A model generated the notes under the pieces. That model ran no database searches. It was not told where the DNA came from and saw only the letters and a list, made by a program, of their open reading frames with translations. Positions 6,006 to 11,648 of a DNA stretch of 11,648 nt are shown here, piece by piece. The first letter of the stretch is position 1. Every line of letters starts with the position of its first letter. This DNA is from Candidatus Woesearchaeota archaeon (GTDB taxonomy: Archaea > Nanobdellota > Nanobdellia > Woesearchaeales > 21-14-0-10-32-9). The DNA lies in NCBI GenBank assembly GCA_007117145.1, contig SKHC01000084.1, positions 1-11,648 of the forward strand, given 5' to 3'. The position numbers and the translations under genes were made by a program.

Positions 6006-6013
6006 TTTATATA
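6006..6013 (+). promoter_or_regulatory. TATA box of the envelope gene cluster
   Basis: TTTATATA starts six bases after the top6A stop and is centred 27-28 bases before the ATG at 6037. The longest open frame begins with an ATG at 6013, which lies on the last base of this box and so could not be on the transcript. This makes 6037 the best start and separates the envelope cluster from the topoisomerase operon. Confidence 0.6.
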
Positions 6014-6036: not shown

Positions 6037-7203
6037 ATGAGACAAAAATTTGGTCAGGCAACTGCCAGCGGAGCGGCAATAACTTTGATTGTTATAACAG
6101 TGGTTGTCGTGCTCTACGTGTTGTTTTTACCTCCTGCTGAAAGGCTAAAACTCTTAGAAGGGGAGAATGGAAATGGTGAGCCAAGTCCATCAAGACCTGA
6201 GGTGTTACTTGAAGAATTCGTAGGTAGGCTTCAATACGTGAGAGGGGGAGATGTTAACTTTGATTTGCAAAGTTTCAATCTAAGGACGATAACCTCGGCG
6301 CAAGTAGTAGCTTCTAAATCTAATATGTATGTTAAAAACAGTTTATTTGATACAATCACAGACACATTTAATTTCAATGTGGATACTTCCCGGTCGGAAG
6401 ATTTACTATTAACATTTAATGCGAGAGGAAAAGGTCATTTAGAAGTTAAGTTAAATGGTGAGCGGGTTTTCTTCGGGGAAATTGATGGTAACAGTCCTCC
6501 GATTTATTTAAATAAAAATTTGCTTGAGAGTTCAAACACTTTATTTTTTGAAGTTTCAAGTCCAGGGATAGTGTTTTGGAGTTTTAATTCTTATGAGATA
6601 ACATCTGCAAGGATAATAGGTGATGTTACAGATACTACAAGGTCTATGAATCAGCAAACAGTGAGTGTTTCTGAGATGCAACTTGATCTTTTAAGCACAG
6701 CGAGACTTAGATACTTTGTAAGTTGTAATCCAAATGAGGTAAAAGAGTTTGAAATTAAATTAAATCACAACTCTATCTTTAAAGGGATTCCTGATTGTAG
6801 CGTTTTAAATCATGTTAGTATTTCAAGATCTGATTTATATCCTGGAGTTAACTTCTTTGAGTTTAGCTTAGAAGAGGGTATGGTGACAGTTGATCAACTG
6901 CGACTTATGATTCAGTTGGAAACACCTCAAACCCCTCTTTATTACTTTGATGTTGAGGATAGGTTCTTTTACGAAAATGAATCTTTAAGGGCGAGTGTTG
7001 ATGCAACTTTGAAATTAGAGTTTCCAAATACTGATAGGAAAAGACTTGAAGTGTTTATTAATGGTAGAATCATCAGTATAAATATTGCAGATTTCAAAGT
7101 TGAAAGAGATGTTTCCACTTATTTAAGACCTGGTCTTAACACGTTAGAAATTAGACCTTTGCAAGATATTGATATAGTTGAAATGCGTTTAGAATTAACT
7201 TAA
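6037..7203 (+). CDS. Single-span envelope protein with three repeated beta-rich modules, function unknown
   Basis: This 388-residue protein starts with a short basic segment (MRQKFGQ), then one membrane helix at about 13-31 ending in LFLPP, followed by a polar linker and a large part predicted to be outside the cell. I recognise no enzyme family. From about residue 122 the protein consists of three related modules, at about 122-194, 222-294 and 323-388. Each has strands leading to a short turn (LNGERVFFG, LNHNSIFKG, INGRIISIN), then an N-containing strand (ESSNTLFFEV, PGVNFFEFSL, PGLNTLEIRP) and a closing strand (ITSARIIGDV, VDQLRLMIQL, IVEMRLELT). The pattern resembles a jelly-roll or carbohydrate-binding fold, which is inference. 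The start at 6037 is chosen from the TATA spacing; ATGs at 6013 and 6031 are in frame. It is followed one base later by the 701-residue membrane protein, so the two are probably one transcription unit. Confidence 0.85.
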   Translation: MRQKFGQATASGAAITLIVITVVVVLYVLFLPPAERLKLLEGENGNGEPSPSRPEVLLEEFVGRLQYVRGGDVNFDLQSFNLRTITSAQVVASKSNMYVKNSLFDTITDTFNFNVDTSRSEDLLLTFNARGKGHLEVKLNGERVFFGEIDGNSPPIYLNKNLLESSNTLFFEVSSPGIVFWSFNSYEITSARIIGDVTDTTRSMNQQTVSVSEMQLDLLSTARLRYFVSCNPNEVKEFEIKLNHNSIFKGIPDCSVLNHVSISRSDLYPGVNFFEFSLEEGMVTVDQLRLMIQLETPQTPLYYFDVEDRFFYENESLRASVDATLKLEFPNTDRKRLEVFINGRIISINIADFKVERDVSTYLRPGLNTLEIRPLQDIDIVEMRLELT

Positions 7204-7204
7204 A

Positions 7205-9310
7205 ATGGTTTTTCAATTCTTAGCCGTTGCCGCAAGAGGTGTCGGGACATTTTTTGCAAGGACGGGTAGAGCAGTCGCTTCTGGTACTAGAAGAGTTTTT
7301 TCTAAGGGCAAGTCCGCAAGTTCTGCTGAAGGTGCAAGTACGGCTAAAGCAAGTGAGTCCGCAACGAATATGAGTGGGTTTTCAGAACAAGAAAAATTAA
7401 ATACTAATATCGAAAATATTAAAGTTACAACAGCGGATGCTATAAAAAGAGGCATGGGTCTTGAGGGAAGTGCTCAAGCTCAAAATCAAGAGTATATAGA
7501 TGCTTTAAATAAGAAAATGGAAGAGAAAAGCCAAAGTAGTGAGAAAGAGAAAGGTTATCTACGGCAGAAGTTACAACAAAATACAGATCATTATTATAAT
7601 AAATTAAACAATAAGTACGAGAATCTCAAATCTAAAGTTGATCAGTACACAGATAGCGAATTCTATAAAGACAAAGCTGATAATTTTTTAGATCCTGAAA
7701 AAAGAGCTAATATGCAAATGGGAAGTAAAGTCAAAAGAGGATTTGGAAGAGCTTCAAACGCTGTTAAGGGCGTTATTGGGGCAGGATTTGCAGGTGTTGG
7801 TTGGCTTTTTAGAAAATCAGAGTATGATAGAGATGAAGTCGATGATGGTATGGGGCAGTTGCTTTTGTTTATTGCAATATTTGTTCATTTATTTGATTTT
7901 TTCTGGTTTGAATTTCAAGTCAATGCAGAGACAATTGTAGGTAGATTTGCAATGTATCTTGCCTTATCTTTATTAGCATATTTAACCTTGAAAATGTCCA
8001 TTGGAGATTCTTTAAAAGAATTTACATTCATAAGTCTAATTCCTTTAGTATTACTTCCTATGCTCTTTGATTACATGTCTAATTTCGCAATCGGTCAAGA
8101 GTTTGCAACTCAACTTCAGATGTGGGTTTTCTTAATACCTTTCTGGCTCGTATACCTTATGTTTATTAAAAAAATAAGCGCGGGATTCTTAGGGGGGGTT
8201 GCCAAGTTTTATTTGAGTGCGATATTTGTTTTCATATTATTTATTTTGATTACAAACTTTGCTACGTCTTTAGGTCAGGCAACCAGTGCAGAAGGAGTAG
8301 ATAGTGAAGAAGCGTTGGTGGATGCAAAAGATTTCCTTGTAGACACGTTTGATTCAATAGTGGGCACATTTACAGGAATTGCGGGCAGAGTTACAGGAGA
8401 AGTTGATAGAAGACTTAATGAAACACTAGGCTATGGTTATCAAGCAGATGTTGAGCGCACTATGGATAGGTCAGGTGTATTTTTAGAGAATTTTAGACCA
8501 GTGGGTACTTTTTATGAAAATCAATCAGTTAGAATGTATGCTGACTTTGAAGTAAGGTCATTTATGGAAGAATTTTCAATAAGTTTCTATTGTATACTAA
8601 GAGATAGGAGTGGAAGAGAAATAGTTGGAACAGCTGTTCCTTCTTCAATCGTTGTTAATGAGTTTGACAACAGAAGGATTTTCTGTGATTTCGAAGATGT
8701 TAATCTTTCCGCAGGTTCTTATACTGCAAGGTTACTTTCAAGTTTTAATTACAAAACCAGTGGATACAGCACGTACTACTTTGTTCCAAGATCTACTCTA
8801 GAGGAAGACACAAGAACCACTTGGAATCAAAGACACAATATTAGGGAAAGACCAGTCAACATCCACACTCAAGGACCAGTATTTTTAGGTATGAATGAAT
8901 CAGTAAGACTGCCAATACCTATTTTTGAGAATAGAACAACATATTTTGCTATTGATTACGGTGTTAGAAATAATCAGCAAAGAGGGGAAATACAAAGAAT
9001 AACTGAGTTCACAACAAAACTTCCGCAAGCATTAGTGATAGAACAAAATCAATGTACTATACCTTTATTTAACACAGGAACGGATGTGAACACAGGTTAT
9101 GAAATATACACTTATACTATGGATCCTGACGAGAATAGACGAATACTTGCCGTAAGTTGTAATATTCAAATTCCAAAAGAGAGAGTTGATGAAGTTGCAA
9201 GTTCTGGTGCAAGACCAGTTACAATTTATGCAGAAGTAGCTTATGATTACGCTATAGAGCTTACGACAAGTATTAATATTCAAAGGCTTACAGGAGGAGG
9301 GCTAGGATGA
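7205..9310 (+). CDS. Large five-span membrane protein with a cytoplasmic helical part and an external C-terminal part, function unknown
   Basis: A 701-residue protein I cannot assign to a family. Residues 1-215 are polar: an N-terminal amphipathic stretch, an Ala/Ser-rich linker, a Lys/Glu/Gln-rich region likely to form helices or coiled coil, and a Gly/Ala-rich weakly hydrophobic stretch at 186-202. Five membrane helices follow at about 219-236, 246-264, 274-292, 305-322 and 333-351. Charges obey the positive-inside rule (basic N-terminal part; K263 and K272 between helices 2 and 3; K323-K324 between helices 4 and 5), which puts the N-terminus inside and residues 352-701 outside. The external part has two beta-rich Ig-like regions with cysteine pairs C463/C494 and C617/C652. 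Its last 100 or so residues resemble the C-termini of the two lipoproteins downstream. One base separates it from the gene before and it overlaps the next gene by 4 bases (ATGA), so it is an operon member. No SD sequence is visible before its ATG. Confidence 0.87.
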   Translation: MVFQFLAVAARGVGTFFARTGRAVASGTRRVFSKGKSASSAEGASTAKASESATNMSGFSEQEKLNTNIENIKVTTADAIKRGMGLEGSAQAQNQEYIDALNKKMEEKSQSSEKEKGYLRQKLQQNTDHYYNKLNNKYENLKSKVDQYTDSEFYKDKADNFLDPEKRANMQMGSKVKRGFGRASNAVKGVIGAGFAGVGWLFRKSEYDRDEVDDGMGQLLLFIAIFVHLFDFFWFEFQVNAETIVGRFAMYLALSLLAYLTLKMSIGDSLKEFTFISLIPLVLLPMLFDYMSNFAIGQEFATQLQMWVFLIPFWLVYLMFIKKISAGFLGGVAKFYLSAIFVFILFILITNFATSLGQATSAEGVDSEEALVDAKDFLVDTFDSIVGTFTGIAGRVTGEVDRRLNETLGYGYQADVERTMDRSGVFLENFRPVGTFYENQSVRMYADFEVRSFMEEFSISFYCILRDRSGREIVGTAVPSSIVVNEFDNRRIFCDFEDVNLSAGSYTARLLSSFNYKTSGYSTYYFVPRSTLEEDTRTTWNQRHNIRERPVNIHTQGPVFLGMNESVRLPIPIFENRTTYFAIDYGVRNNQQRGEIQRITEFTTKLPQALVIEQNQCTIPLFNTGTDVNTGYEIYTYTMDPDENRRILAVSCNIQIPKERVDEVASSGARPVTIYAEVAYDYAIELTTSINIQRLTGGGLG
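9295..9300 (+). promoter_or_regulatory. Shine-Dalgarno site of the first lipoprotein gene
   Basis: AGGAGG, part of a longer GGAGGAGGG run, ends 6 bases before the ATG at 9307 and lies within the end of the preceding gene. Together with the ATGA stop-start overlap it indicates coupled translation. Confidence 0.75.
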
Positions 9311-10284
9311 GATACTTATTAGTTATACTTTTACTGCTCTCTGCCTGTGGAGGGGGAGAATTAACCAGAGTGAACTACTTTGAAGGAAGAGAAGCAGTCC
9401 ATTTAACTTTTGGTCAGAATACTCCTCCGAGAAACGTTTATGATGACTCACAGTTCATGCTAGGTGTCAATATTCATAACAGAGGAGCATTTGATACTGA
9501 AGGTAAGATAATTTTTGAATATGACACTTTCGTTTTAGAAGGTTCAGGTTCATTTGAAAGAGAATTTGCAATCAGAGGAAAACAACCTGGTTTTCCAAGA
9601 GGAGAACAAGATTATTTGCAAGGAGGATTCTTAGAAGTTAGAGAGGTTGAAGGTTTGAGAGAATCCACAGATACAAGAATTACTGCTTCTATTTGCTATC
9701 CTTACAGAACTCAACTCACAGATTTTTTCTGTGTTGATAGTGATGTTTTCGGAGGAGATACAAATCCTCTTTGTAGAGGTCGTCAGTTTCACACATATTC
9801 AGGGCAAGGAGCACCAGTAATTATTGATAGAGTAACGCCAGATGTTGTTCCAAGAGGAACTTTAGAAGATAGTACTGAGACAGTCATCCCAGTACTTGAT
9901 GAAACAGGTAATTTAGTTGAAGTTAGACGTGAAGAAGTAAGCACTAGGCAGATAATACTTCAGCCTCACTTTGAAATCTCAATTAGAAATGTGGGAAGAG
10001 GACTTGTTTTTGGAACTAATCAAGGACTATCTGCATGTACAGATACATCTCAAAGGAGAATGGGAGAAGTTCACGTAATGGCAAATATGCTAGATTTAAA
10101 TCTCACGTGCAGTCCAAATCCAGTTACTATTAGAGGAGGAGAAGCAACAACCAGATGCTTTGTAGAGCCTGATGATTGGTTTTATACATCTACGAGTTAC
10201 ATGGATGTTTTAACTGTGTATCTTGATTATTACTATTTAGATCAAACAAGTACAGAGGTTAAAGTTAACCGTTTACGAAGATAA
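9307..10284 (+). CDS. Predicted lipoprotein with CARDB/Ig-like segments, paralogue of the next gene
   Basis: This protein of 325 residues begins with a very short signal sequence (one arginine, then a leucine-rich core) ending in the lipobox LSAC, so C14 would be the lipidated N-terminus. No family is recognised. VNIHNRGA (residues 54-61) and FEISIRNVG (222-230) look like the strand-N-x-G motifs of CARDB or related Ig-like domains. Cysteines at 130, 142 and 156 sit in a segment that reads CYPY, then CVD, then CR, then GQGAPV. A second group is C244, C268 and C284. The next gene repeats these features in the same order with nearly the same spacing, so the pair arose by duplication. It is translationally coupled to the 701-residue membrane protein through an ATGA overlap, which suggests the products act together on the outer face of the membrane. 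Confidence 0.85.
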   Translation: MRYLLVILLLLSACGGGELTRVNYFEGREAVHLTFGQNTPPRNVYDDSQFMLGVNIHNRGAFDTEGKIIFEYDTFVLEGSGSFEREFAIRGKQPGFPRGEQDYLQGGFLEVREVEGLRESTDTRITASICYPYRTQLTDFFCVDSDVFGGDTNPLCRGRQFHTYSGQGAPVIIDRVTPDVVPRGTLEDSTETVIPVLDETGNLVEVRREEVSTRQIILQPHFEISIRNVGRGLVFGTNQGLSACTDTSQRRMGEVHVMANMLDLNLTCSPNPVTIRGGEATTRCFVEPDDWFYTSTSYMDVLTVYLDYYYLDQTSTEVKVNRLRR

Positions 10285-10295
10285 AAAAGGTAACT

Positions 10296-10303
10296 TTTAA
10301 ATA
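10296..10303 (+). promoter_or_regulatory. TATA box of the second lipoprotein gene
   Basis: TTTAAATA lies 12 bases after the preceding stop and is centred 27-28 bases before the in-frame ATG at 10327, but only 12-13 bases before the ATG at 10312. The spacing supports a leaderless start at 10327. It matches the TTTAAATA box and spacing in front of the KH gene. Confidence 0.5.
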
Positions 10304-10326
10304 CTATCTTTATGAATAAAGCTTTG

Positions 10327-11616
10327 ATGGCCAGAAAAACCTTAGTAGGAATATTACTAGTATTAGTTCTTTTTATAGCTGGTTGTGGAGGTTTTGGAGC
10401 AGATAGGGCTGTTGCTTGTGCTGAAGGATCTAATTGCAAGTATTATACGGGTACGCGAGGAGTTGATATACTGCTTGATAGACCTCCTCATATGCTTTAC
10501 TACAGAAGTGCTGATGCTAATATTACAGATGGAAATGCTGTTCCAATAAATGTAAGGGTCCACAATAGGGGTGCAAGCGATTCGTATGGAGGTGTTTTCT
10601 TATCAGGTTTTGGTCCAACTTTCAAAGTTGATAGGATTTATGATGATGGAACTAGGCTTCCAATAAGTGTTACAGGTCTTGGTGATAATTGTGGTATTAA
10701 CTTAGGCAGTTTTGGTCCAGTGCCTTATTTCACTGTTCAGTGTTATGGATTTGACGTTACTAGCTCTGGAGGAACTTATAGAGGTACTTTAGATACAAAC
10801 AAAATAAGTGATGCTTTTGGTATTGATTGGCTTCCAGAAGATCTTCGTCTAAATTTCCAGTATACTGATGGTCATTTCGGATTTAATGTGGCATACGATG
10901 GTTTCACTCTTAACGCACTATATCATGGAAAATTACTTATGAGCATTGTTGTTAGCTTTTTAGATTTTGAAAGTTTAAATGGTATGACTTATGCATTGCA
11001 TGGAGATAATCCTGATTATCCGGGGGGAGGAGATGATTACAAGCAATTCCTTGTTGCTATGACTGGTTCTTGGCCAAGTGGTATCGATGAGATAGTTCAG
11101 CCTTATAGAGTTACTAATTGTTATGCATACACAACGTTTGTAAGTCCTCAAATATGTGTTGATCCGAATCCGTTCAGCGGAGATAGAGGTGTTTGCAGAG
11201 CTAACCAAGATTTAAGTCTTGGAAGCCAAGGAGCACCTGTTGCAGTAACAAGAGTTAGTCAAAGAAACACTGGAAGAAGCGTTATTATGGATTTTGAAGT
11301 CAGAAACGTTGGCGGTGGTCGAGTTTGGGAAGTTGGAAGCTTAGAGAGATGTAGTCCTTATTTCCCTGAAACGCCCACGGGAAGAAACCATCACGATGTT
11401 ATTTACGTTGGTTTTGTGATGATAGATGATTGGTTCATTGACTGTAGTCAAAGAATAATCAGACTTCATGATGGTGTGGGAAGGTTCACTTGCACGTATA
11501 ATTTTGCAGAGAGAGGCGTTATTGGAAGTGCTTACGTAACTCCACTGAGAATGGAACTTTGGTATGGTTATGAGACGACAGTTAACAACAACTTGAGAAT
11601 AAGAAGAATAGCTTAA
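10327..11616 (+). CDS. Predicted lipoprotein, larger paralogue of the preceding gene
   Basis: With the start at 10327 this is a 429-residue protein beginning MARKT, then a hydrophobic core and the lipobox IAGC with C20 as the lipidated residue. It shares with the preceding lipoprotein, in order: VRVHNRGA (76-83), a CYAY...CVD...CR block with cysteines 265, 277 and 290 followed by GSQGAPV, FEVRNVGGG (323-331), and cysteines 342, 373 and 389. The C373-C389 spacing (15 residues between) equals C268-C284 in the paralogue. An extra stretch of more than 100 residues between the HNRGA motif and the CYAY block accounts for most of the length difference. The function is unknown; an extracellular binding or structural role beside the neighbouring envelope proteins is inference. 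An in-frame ATG at 10312 would add five residues, but the TATA spacing favours 10327. Confidence 0.85.
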   Translation: MARKTLVGILLVLVLFIAGCGGFGADRAVACAEGSNCKYYTGTRGVDILLDRPPHMLYYRSADANITDGNAVPINVRVHNRGASDSYGGVFLSGFGPTFKVDRIYDDGTRLPISVTGLGDNCGINLGSFGPVPYFTVQCYGFDVTSSGGTYRGTLDTNKISDAFGIDWLPEDLRLNFQYTDGHFGFNVAYDGFTLNALYHGKLLMSIVVSFLDFESLNGMTYALHGDNPDYPGGGDDYKQFLVAMTGSWPSGIDEIVQPYRVTNCYAYTTFVSPQICVDPNPFSGDRGVCRANQDLSLGSQGAPVAVTRVSQRNTGRSVIMDFEVRNVGGGRVWEVGSLERCSPYFPETPTGRNHHDVIYVGFVMIDDWFIDCSQRIIRLHDGVGRFTCTYNFAERGVIGSAYVTPLRMELWYGYETTVNNNLRIRRIA

Positions 11617-11624
11617 TAAGCTTT

Positions 11625-11630
11625 AGGAGG
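11625..11630 (+). promoter_or_regulatory. Shine-Dalgarno site of the gene at the right edge
   Basis: AGGAGG ends 8 bases before an ATG at 11639 and lies 9 bases after the preceding stop. This is strong evidence that another gene of the cluster begins here. Confidence 0.7.
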
Positions 11631-11638
11631 TATAAAAA

Positions 11639-11648
11639 ATGAAGAAAA
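11639..11648 (+). CDS. Start of a further gene (partial, first three codons only)
   Basis: An ATG followed by two lysine codons starts 22 bases after the stop of the second lipoprotein, with an AGGAGG site at good distance. MKK is a common beginning for signal peptides or membrane helices, which would suit another envelope protein, but three codons say nothing about the product. Confidence 0.6.

Follow-up and report, generated by a model that had tools for sequence, protein, structure and literature searches.

What is encoded by the run of same-strand genes with which this Woesearchaeota contig ends, and what might it do at the cell surface? The window, meaning the whole stretch of 11,648 nucleotides analysed here, is an entire contig (G000:C76) of a 640-kb genome that is 80% complete, and from position 6037 on it holds five genes, A to E, the last of which is truncated by the contig end. 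We propose that these genes specify a membrane-anchored surface complex of the Woesearchaeales whose most likely action is to attach to the peptidoglycan of bacteria, be they partners or prey, and to breach it locally; to this reading we give an even chance. It draws above all on the gene order, which is kept among relatives, and on the murein-hydrolase domains of unrelated classes found on relatives of B. The features concerned, all on the forward strand, are as follows.

6006 to 6013, +, TATA box of gene A (TTTATATA), 24-31 bases 5′ of the ATG at 6037; a leaderless start is likely
6037 to 7203, +, gene A, 388 amino acids (aa), with an N-terminal class III-like signal, one span and three tandem jelly-roll-type β-domains
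6046 to 6057, +, K-F-G|Q motif of A; cleavage of prepilin-peptidase type is predicted ahead of the Q, and the −2 residue is an uncharged F
7205 to 9310, +, gene B, 701 aa: tail about 1-211, five spans about 219-342, β-rich ectodomain about 351-701
8717 to 9295, +, residues 505-697 of B, within the ectodomain; probable distant kinship with lipoproteins C/D/E
9307 to 10284, +, gene C, first lipoprotein, 325 aa, lipobox Cys14, ATGA overlap with B
10294 to 10303, +, TATA box of gene D (CTTTTAAATA), conserved 5′ of the second lipoprotein
10312 to 11616, +, gene D, second lipoprotein, 434 aa from 10312, with lipobox; probable leaderless start at ATG 10327
11639 to 11648, +, first 10 bases of gene E (ATGAAGAAAA), the ATG at 11639 preceded by AGGAGGT

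Gene order and conservation of the module

An earlier note on this DNA, made from the letters alone, had described four linked same-strand genes with a fifth at the edge, tied together by a one-base gap and an ATGA overlap. The coordinates of the open reading frames (ORFs) bear this out: A and B are 1 base apart, B and C share the ATGA overlap, and 27 bases lie between C and D. An in-frame ATG for A also occurs at 6013; because it overlaps the TATA box, a start at 6037 or 6031 is likelier. Gene E, of which the window shows the start alone, is a putative third lipoprotein gene by synteny with relatives of the same gene order.

The relatives of the module genes belong to Woesearchaeota. A search with the B protein of the window found a relative in 9 of the 11 genomes of its family, its own included, and in all of the high-quality ones (5/5). 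Among 118 genomes of the order, gene A was detected in 110, mostly as a single match, the D profile matched in 113 and a family-built B profile in 74. Gene order was read from 49 order loci (the window, eight from its family and 40 from the order) fetched around A or B and picked from high-scoring matches, mostly on longer contigs, and thus not a random sample. A, B and at least one lipoprotein stand in the same order and on the same strand in 49/49 of these loci, and the gap between B and the first lipoprotein has a median of −4 over 56 loci. Three lipoproteins are present in 38 order loci, four in 3, two in 6 and one in 2; the sequence end truncates six of the eight loci with one or two, not L087 and L091. 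An unlabelled lipoprotein-like ORF lies between the two recognised lipoproteins of L091, and in L087, downstream of about 7075, the second lipoprotein is followed on the opposite strand by a 304-aa lipobox ORF without a profile match, a possible replacement of the third slot. In L092 (5552-10578), about 5 kb separates B from C and holds ORFs of 1472 and 185 aa on the opposite strand, without a Pfam match.

In a wider sample of 237 genomes (149 of the order and 88 others of the same class; E up to 0.001), gene A was present in 143/149 and 58/88 genomes, respectively, and the lipoprotein family in 148/149 and 50/88. Both occur together in 143 order genomes, the lipoproteins alone in 5 and neither in 1; for the 88 others the counts are 47 for both, 11 for A alone, 3 for the lipoproteins alone and 27 for neither. 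Outside the order, A and the lipoproteins are mostly kept or lost together. Nine loci were taken from these other genomes. Seven of them read A, B and two lipoproteins, and their B is shorter, at 389-482 aa and with one or two spans. In the other two, L121 and L123 of family f90, A stands alone, and lipoprotein family matches exist in both genomes, outside the fetched stretch.

These data support genes A to E as one conserved module, near-universal in the sampled genomes of the order, a large group of very small archaea not yet in culture. The earlier note had named gene order across related genomes as one of its checks and would have given the module up had the genes been scattered, or had each belonged to a known unrelated family. 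The order is kept in every order locus fetched, co-occurrence agrees, and we found neither such scattering nor such families, the exception being two loci outside the order with A alone.

TATA-like boxes were scored as matches of at least 7/8 to TTTAWATA, each count with its control. They are found 5′ of A in 31/48 loci (control 3/48) and 5′ of the second lipoprotein in 34/47 (31 of them perfect; control 1/47), so that the TATA box noticed earlier before the second lipoprotein is true of D and general. The counts are 2/49 for the first lipoprotein (control 1/49), 11/40 for the third (control 0/40) and 14/49 for B (control 5/49). Two transcription units, A-B-C and D-E, are likely from this distribution of boxes.

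Six recurrent neighbours of the order loci were identified, each named from one representative: an RFC small subunit (39 loci), Pelota/eRF1 (37), a PRC-barrel protein (27), TrmB, a class I tRNA synthetase and an rRNA methylase. In the window itself, the module is preceded by genes for a RIO1-type kinase, a KH-domain protein and topoisomerase VI B and A. On the reverse strand, the product of positions 3-1403 is at least 467 aa long, has about nine spans and lacks both a Pfam match at E ≤ 1 and a relative in the eight other family stretches compared; by eye, it looks like a membrane glycosyltransferase.

Murein-hydrolase domains on the proposed hub protein

A Pfam scan of the full set of 49 order B proteins, in which domains above the gathering cut-off were counted, found a murein-hydrolase domain on 14 of them, from 13 families, and these domains fall into five unrelated classes. 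Nine are SLT domains (PF01464, on B of L062, L063, L064, L070, L076, L081, L082, L083 and L085; best 3.1e-17), two are M23 (L058, L092), and Amidase_2 (L080, 6.9e-30), Glucosaminidase (L090, 5.3e-15, in a single-contig genome) and NlpC/P60 (L094) occur once each. The domain follows the last predicted span in 13/14 proteins; in L092, a weak hydrophobic stretch comes after it. In the 10/14 hydrolase-bearing B proteins that the family-built B profile matches, the match does not reach as far as the domain. A profile built from the nine SLT domains also matches L094 and L069. Judged by motifs that we take to be catalytic, 7/9 SLT domains have the glutamate motif ahead of a GLMQ-type motif, with L082 ambiguous, and HxxxD and HxH are both present in one of the two M23 domains.

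As we read the domain matches, the strongest hint of function is that unrelated enzyme folds with what would be one substrate sit on one orthologous hub. Bacterial peptidoglycan is the presumed target because, to our knowledge, archaea make no murein. The earlier note had offered attachment, secretion or envelope structure as possible roles; the hydrolases narrow this choice.

The best-surviving alternative is a house-keeping envelope scaffold, in which the complex spans the distance from the membrane to the S-layer and holds that layer, and the hydrolases of B are late add-ons for competition. Such a role would suit a module that is near-universal in the sampled order genomes, with A mostly as one match per genome, and that is present also where B has no hydrolase; moreover, the Methanococcus-type S-layer profile TIGR01564 matches 206/237 genomes (141 over the cut-off), and such a layer would need anchoring. 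However, S-layer matches also occur in genomes without the module and are absent from some genomes with it, the window's own incomplete one included, and a pure scaffold does not readily account for a hub with murein hydrolases of five unrelated classes. We consider the scaffold unlikely, if still a serious contender. A canonical S-layer protein seems to occur in many Woesearchaeales, the TIGR01564 matches often lying on open frames of 700-980 aa; the accessible parts of PMC11329633 were consulted for the S-layers of DPANN archaea. Proteins A to D were considered as S-layer proteins themselves and rejected, as none of the four matches TIGR01564 at E ≤ 1.

Anchors, folds and paralogy of the surface proteins

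The earlier note had described A as a repeat-containing protein with a single span, and this agrees with our comparison. A membrane span (residues 11-30) and a short helix (33-40) precede the three tandem β-domains, and profile comparison of the segments gave probabilities of 97.5% for the first and second, 94.3% for the second and third and 9.1% for the first and third. In the AlphaFold model (pLDDT 90.7), the domains resemble those of PNGase F, BcsB, β-galactosidases and GH2 sugar-binding domains. Longer A frames, of about 560-605 aa, recur in several families, and A of L015 (6589-8268) and L016 (11786-13468) has a Cys-rich insertion of about 150 aa within the third domain.

The N-terminus of A looks like an archaeal class III (pilin-type) signal, and cleavage is predicted. 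According to the accessible parts of PMC4371748, such signals have G, A or S at −1 and usually a charged residue at −2 before a hydrophobic segment, often with Gln at +1. By our own pattern, the motif is strict in 102 of 117 A sequences, loose in 12 and missing from 3. In a control set, the strict motif was found in 49/56 A proteins, 3/145 lipoproteins and 9/73 other ORFs with an N-terminal span, and the strict or loose motif in 56/56, 13/145 and 25/73, respectively. An A24 prepilin peptidase is encoded in the window's own genome (G000:C85:8965-9309) and in 231/237 genomes of the wider sample. The T2SSF pilus platform is matched in 193/237 genomes and has no match in 44, of which 42 keep the peptidase and 42 keep gene A. 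Because the peptidase is kept in 42/44 genomes without a T2SSF match, it probably has other substrates there, and A is a candidate non-pilus substrate.

In L121 and L123, A has a classical pilin-like start with glutamate at +5. This residue, the pilin-type N-terminus and the wide occurrence of both peptidase and platform would fit a pilus-related system, in which type IV pilus machinery would assemble A, a true (minor) pilin, and B to E would form an apparatus for its exit or for adhesion. We regard it as improbable, for A is kept in 42/44 genomes without a platform match, and no pilus gene occurs among the six recurrent neighbours identified (rarer ones were not identified). Nutrient capture in the manner of the Sulfolobus bindosome, with A and the lipoproteins binding sugars or cell debris for uptake, is likewise a long shot: the accessible parts of PMC4371748 describe the bindosome subunits as large and as having pilin-type processing sites, the jelly rolls of A resemble sugar-binding domains and the hydrolases would release sugars, but the six identified recurrent neighbours (again with the rarer ones not identified) include no transporter and the lipoproteins match no solute-binding family in Pfam or NCBIfam.

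Protein B varies considerably. Across 34 sequences, its N-terminal tail is anywhere between about 7 and 246 aa long (10 aa in a same-genus relative), so that the cytoplasmic connector of the earlier note is not a conserved part, and its predicted span count runs from 1 to 8. The five spans seen by the earlier note are present in the window copy. The AlphaFold model of residues 200-701 (pLDDT 85.1) has helices followed by generic Ig-like β-domains. Aligned by hhalign with the lipoprotein profile, the B ectodomain matched over 156 columns with a score of 42.2 (E 2e-4, probability 47%); reversed controls scored 15.2 and 14.9 and the best of 60 block-shuffled ones 27.5. From this alignment, B is probably a membrane-bound remote relative of C/D/E.

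The lipobox Cys is invariant in 33 aligned C/D/E sequences, all predicted lipoproteins. C and D each score with the other's profile and are paralogous, as had been claimed, and relatives have three paralogues instead of two. In a tree of 130 lipoproteins, made by a quick method without bootstrap, the third lipoprotein of the order groups with the second of the other genomes of the class (support 94), and the first and second of the order group together within Woesearchaeales (support 98); each slot retains its own branch with few exceptions. Because of this grouping, the ancestral operon was probably A-B-C-E, with C duplicated to C and D in Woesearchaeales. The first lipoprotein is extended in L074 (6731-9457, 909 aa), L075 (2741-4843, 701 aa) and L073 (7275-8924, 550 aa), where B is without a hydrolase; these extended proteins have no Pfam match over the cut-off. 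The earlier note had recognised no family among the proteins, and the database searches agree: no Pfam or NCBIfam family covers A, the B core or the lipoproteins, and A to D have no match above the curated cut-off in either database (PHROGs and PADLOC were not covered).

The proposed complex and known systems

In the arrangement that we favour, A to E would encode one cell-surface complex. B would be its integral-membrane hub, and the B ectodomain and the three lipoproteins, sharing a related β-domain, would sit next to one another in a fixed hetero-oligomer. A would be held by its pilin-type N-terminus, probably trimmed by the prepilin peptidase, with its three jelly-roll domains projecting outward, and would bind the S-layer or glycan. 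Distally, B carries a murein-hydrolase domain in many lineages, be it that of a lytic transglycosylase, an M23 peptidase, an amidase, a glucosaminidase or NlpC/P60. In the window's family, B may have lost or never gained a hydrolase, and the complex would only bind or use a separate enzyme. A bolder version, in which the five proteins form an order-wide contact machine, with a pilin-type jelly-roll stalk and a hub with swapped murein hydrolases, that attaches to and opens the wall of bacterial hosts, is one that we hold tentatively and short of an even chance.

Several observations weigh against a bacterial wall-binding complex. No SLT or other hydrolase domain was found by Pfam on the window B (scanned in full at E ≤ 1, and from residue 200 at E ≤ 0.01) or on the other eight B proteins of its family. 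Because 35/49 order B proteins and the seven scanned B proteins from the rest of the class have no such domain, hydrolysis is not a constant function of the module. Some of the domains are themselves questionable: NlpC/P60 of L094 is marginal (23.6 versus 23 bits) with no catalytic Cys motif seen, the SLT domain of L081 has no glutamate motif and looks degenerate, and so does the M23 domain of L058, which is without HxH. The relation of B to the lipoproteins reaches only 47% hhalign probability and was not seen with narrower, family-only profiles (A2 versus A3). As for A, the jelly-roll fold is common and says nothing on function, the window copy has G at −1 and F instead of a charged residue at −2, which is half of the class III rule and a loose match, six sampled genomes have A and no peptidase match, and A is alone in the fetched stretch of L121 and L123.

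The Woesearchaeales, a widespread order without cultured members, have few known partners. A near-universal operon whose hub bears, in many lineages, cell-wall enzymes of five unrelated classes is a concrete, testable lead for their engagement with bacteria, and, if the bolder version is true, bacteria and not archaea would be their usual partners. Boundaries are now given to five families that databases, where they name them, call hypothetical.

Several known systems invite comparison. A resembles BcsB of bacterial cellulose synthase in its domains, but the overall TM-score is low (0.23), the span is N-terminal in A and C-terminal in BcsB, and no cellulose synthase is among the six identified recurrent neighbours (rarer ones were not identified, and the window contig ends inside E). 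With class III signal proteins, including the Sulfolobus bindosome, as far as the accessible parts of PMC4371748 describe them, A shares the −1/−2/+1 pattern, the hydrophobic segment and an A24 peptidase in the genomes; unlike them, it is kept without a pilus platform match, has three jelly-roll domains and stands in an operon with lipoproteins.

The module is of a kind undescribed in the literature searched, whereas murein enzymes in Woesearchaeota are not a new idea. It is not described in the accessible parts of PMC9258230 or PMC11537232, and those of PMC8204110, PMC9723730 and PMC12352652 describe neither the operon nor the hub nor several hydrolase classes on one protein. Peptidoglycan hydrolase homologs were reported in 175/3,706 archaeal genomes (PMC12352652, accessible parts); these bacteria-killing enzymes are, like those on B, archaeal enzymes against bacterial murein and are said to be prominent in Nanoarchaeota, but that portion of the paper describes no membrane hub or operon for them. 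Two more accounts come near, likewise taken from the accessible parts of the papers. PMC8204110 lists 51 families, most without an assigned function, that Woesearchaeota have in common with Pacearchaeota; one of them, fam00969 (module 98), comprises large extracellular proteins with a murein lytic transglycosylase domain, and the paper suggests that there is contact with bacteria. PMC9723730 reports GH23 transglycosylases in five metagenome-assembled genomes, under a heading on predatory Woesearchaeota. Compared by description, these proteins and B are alike in lineage, surface location, murein lytic transglycosylase domain and proposed bacterial contact; the accounts, in those parts, mention no operon or other hydrolase classes on the same protein, whereas B belongs to a conserved operon and, at most of the loci studied, is a hub without the domain.

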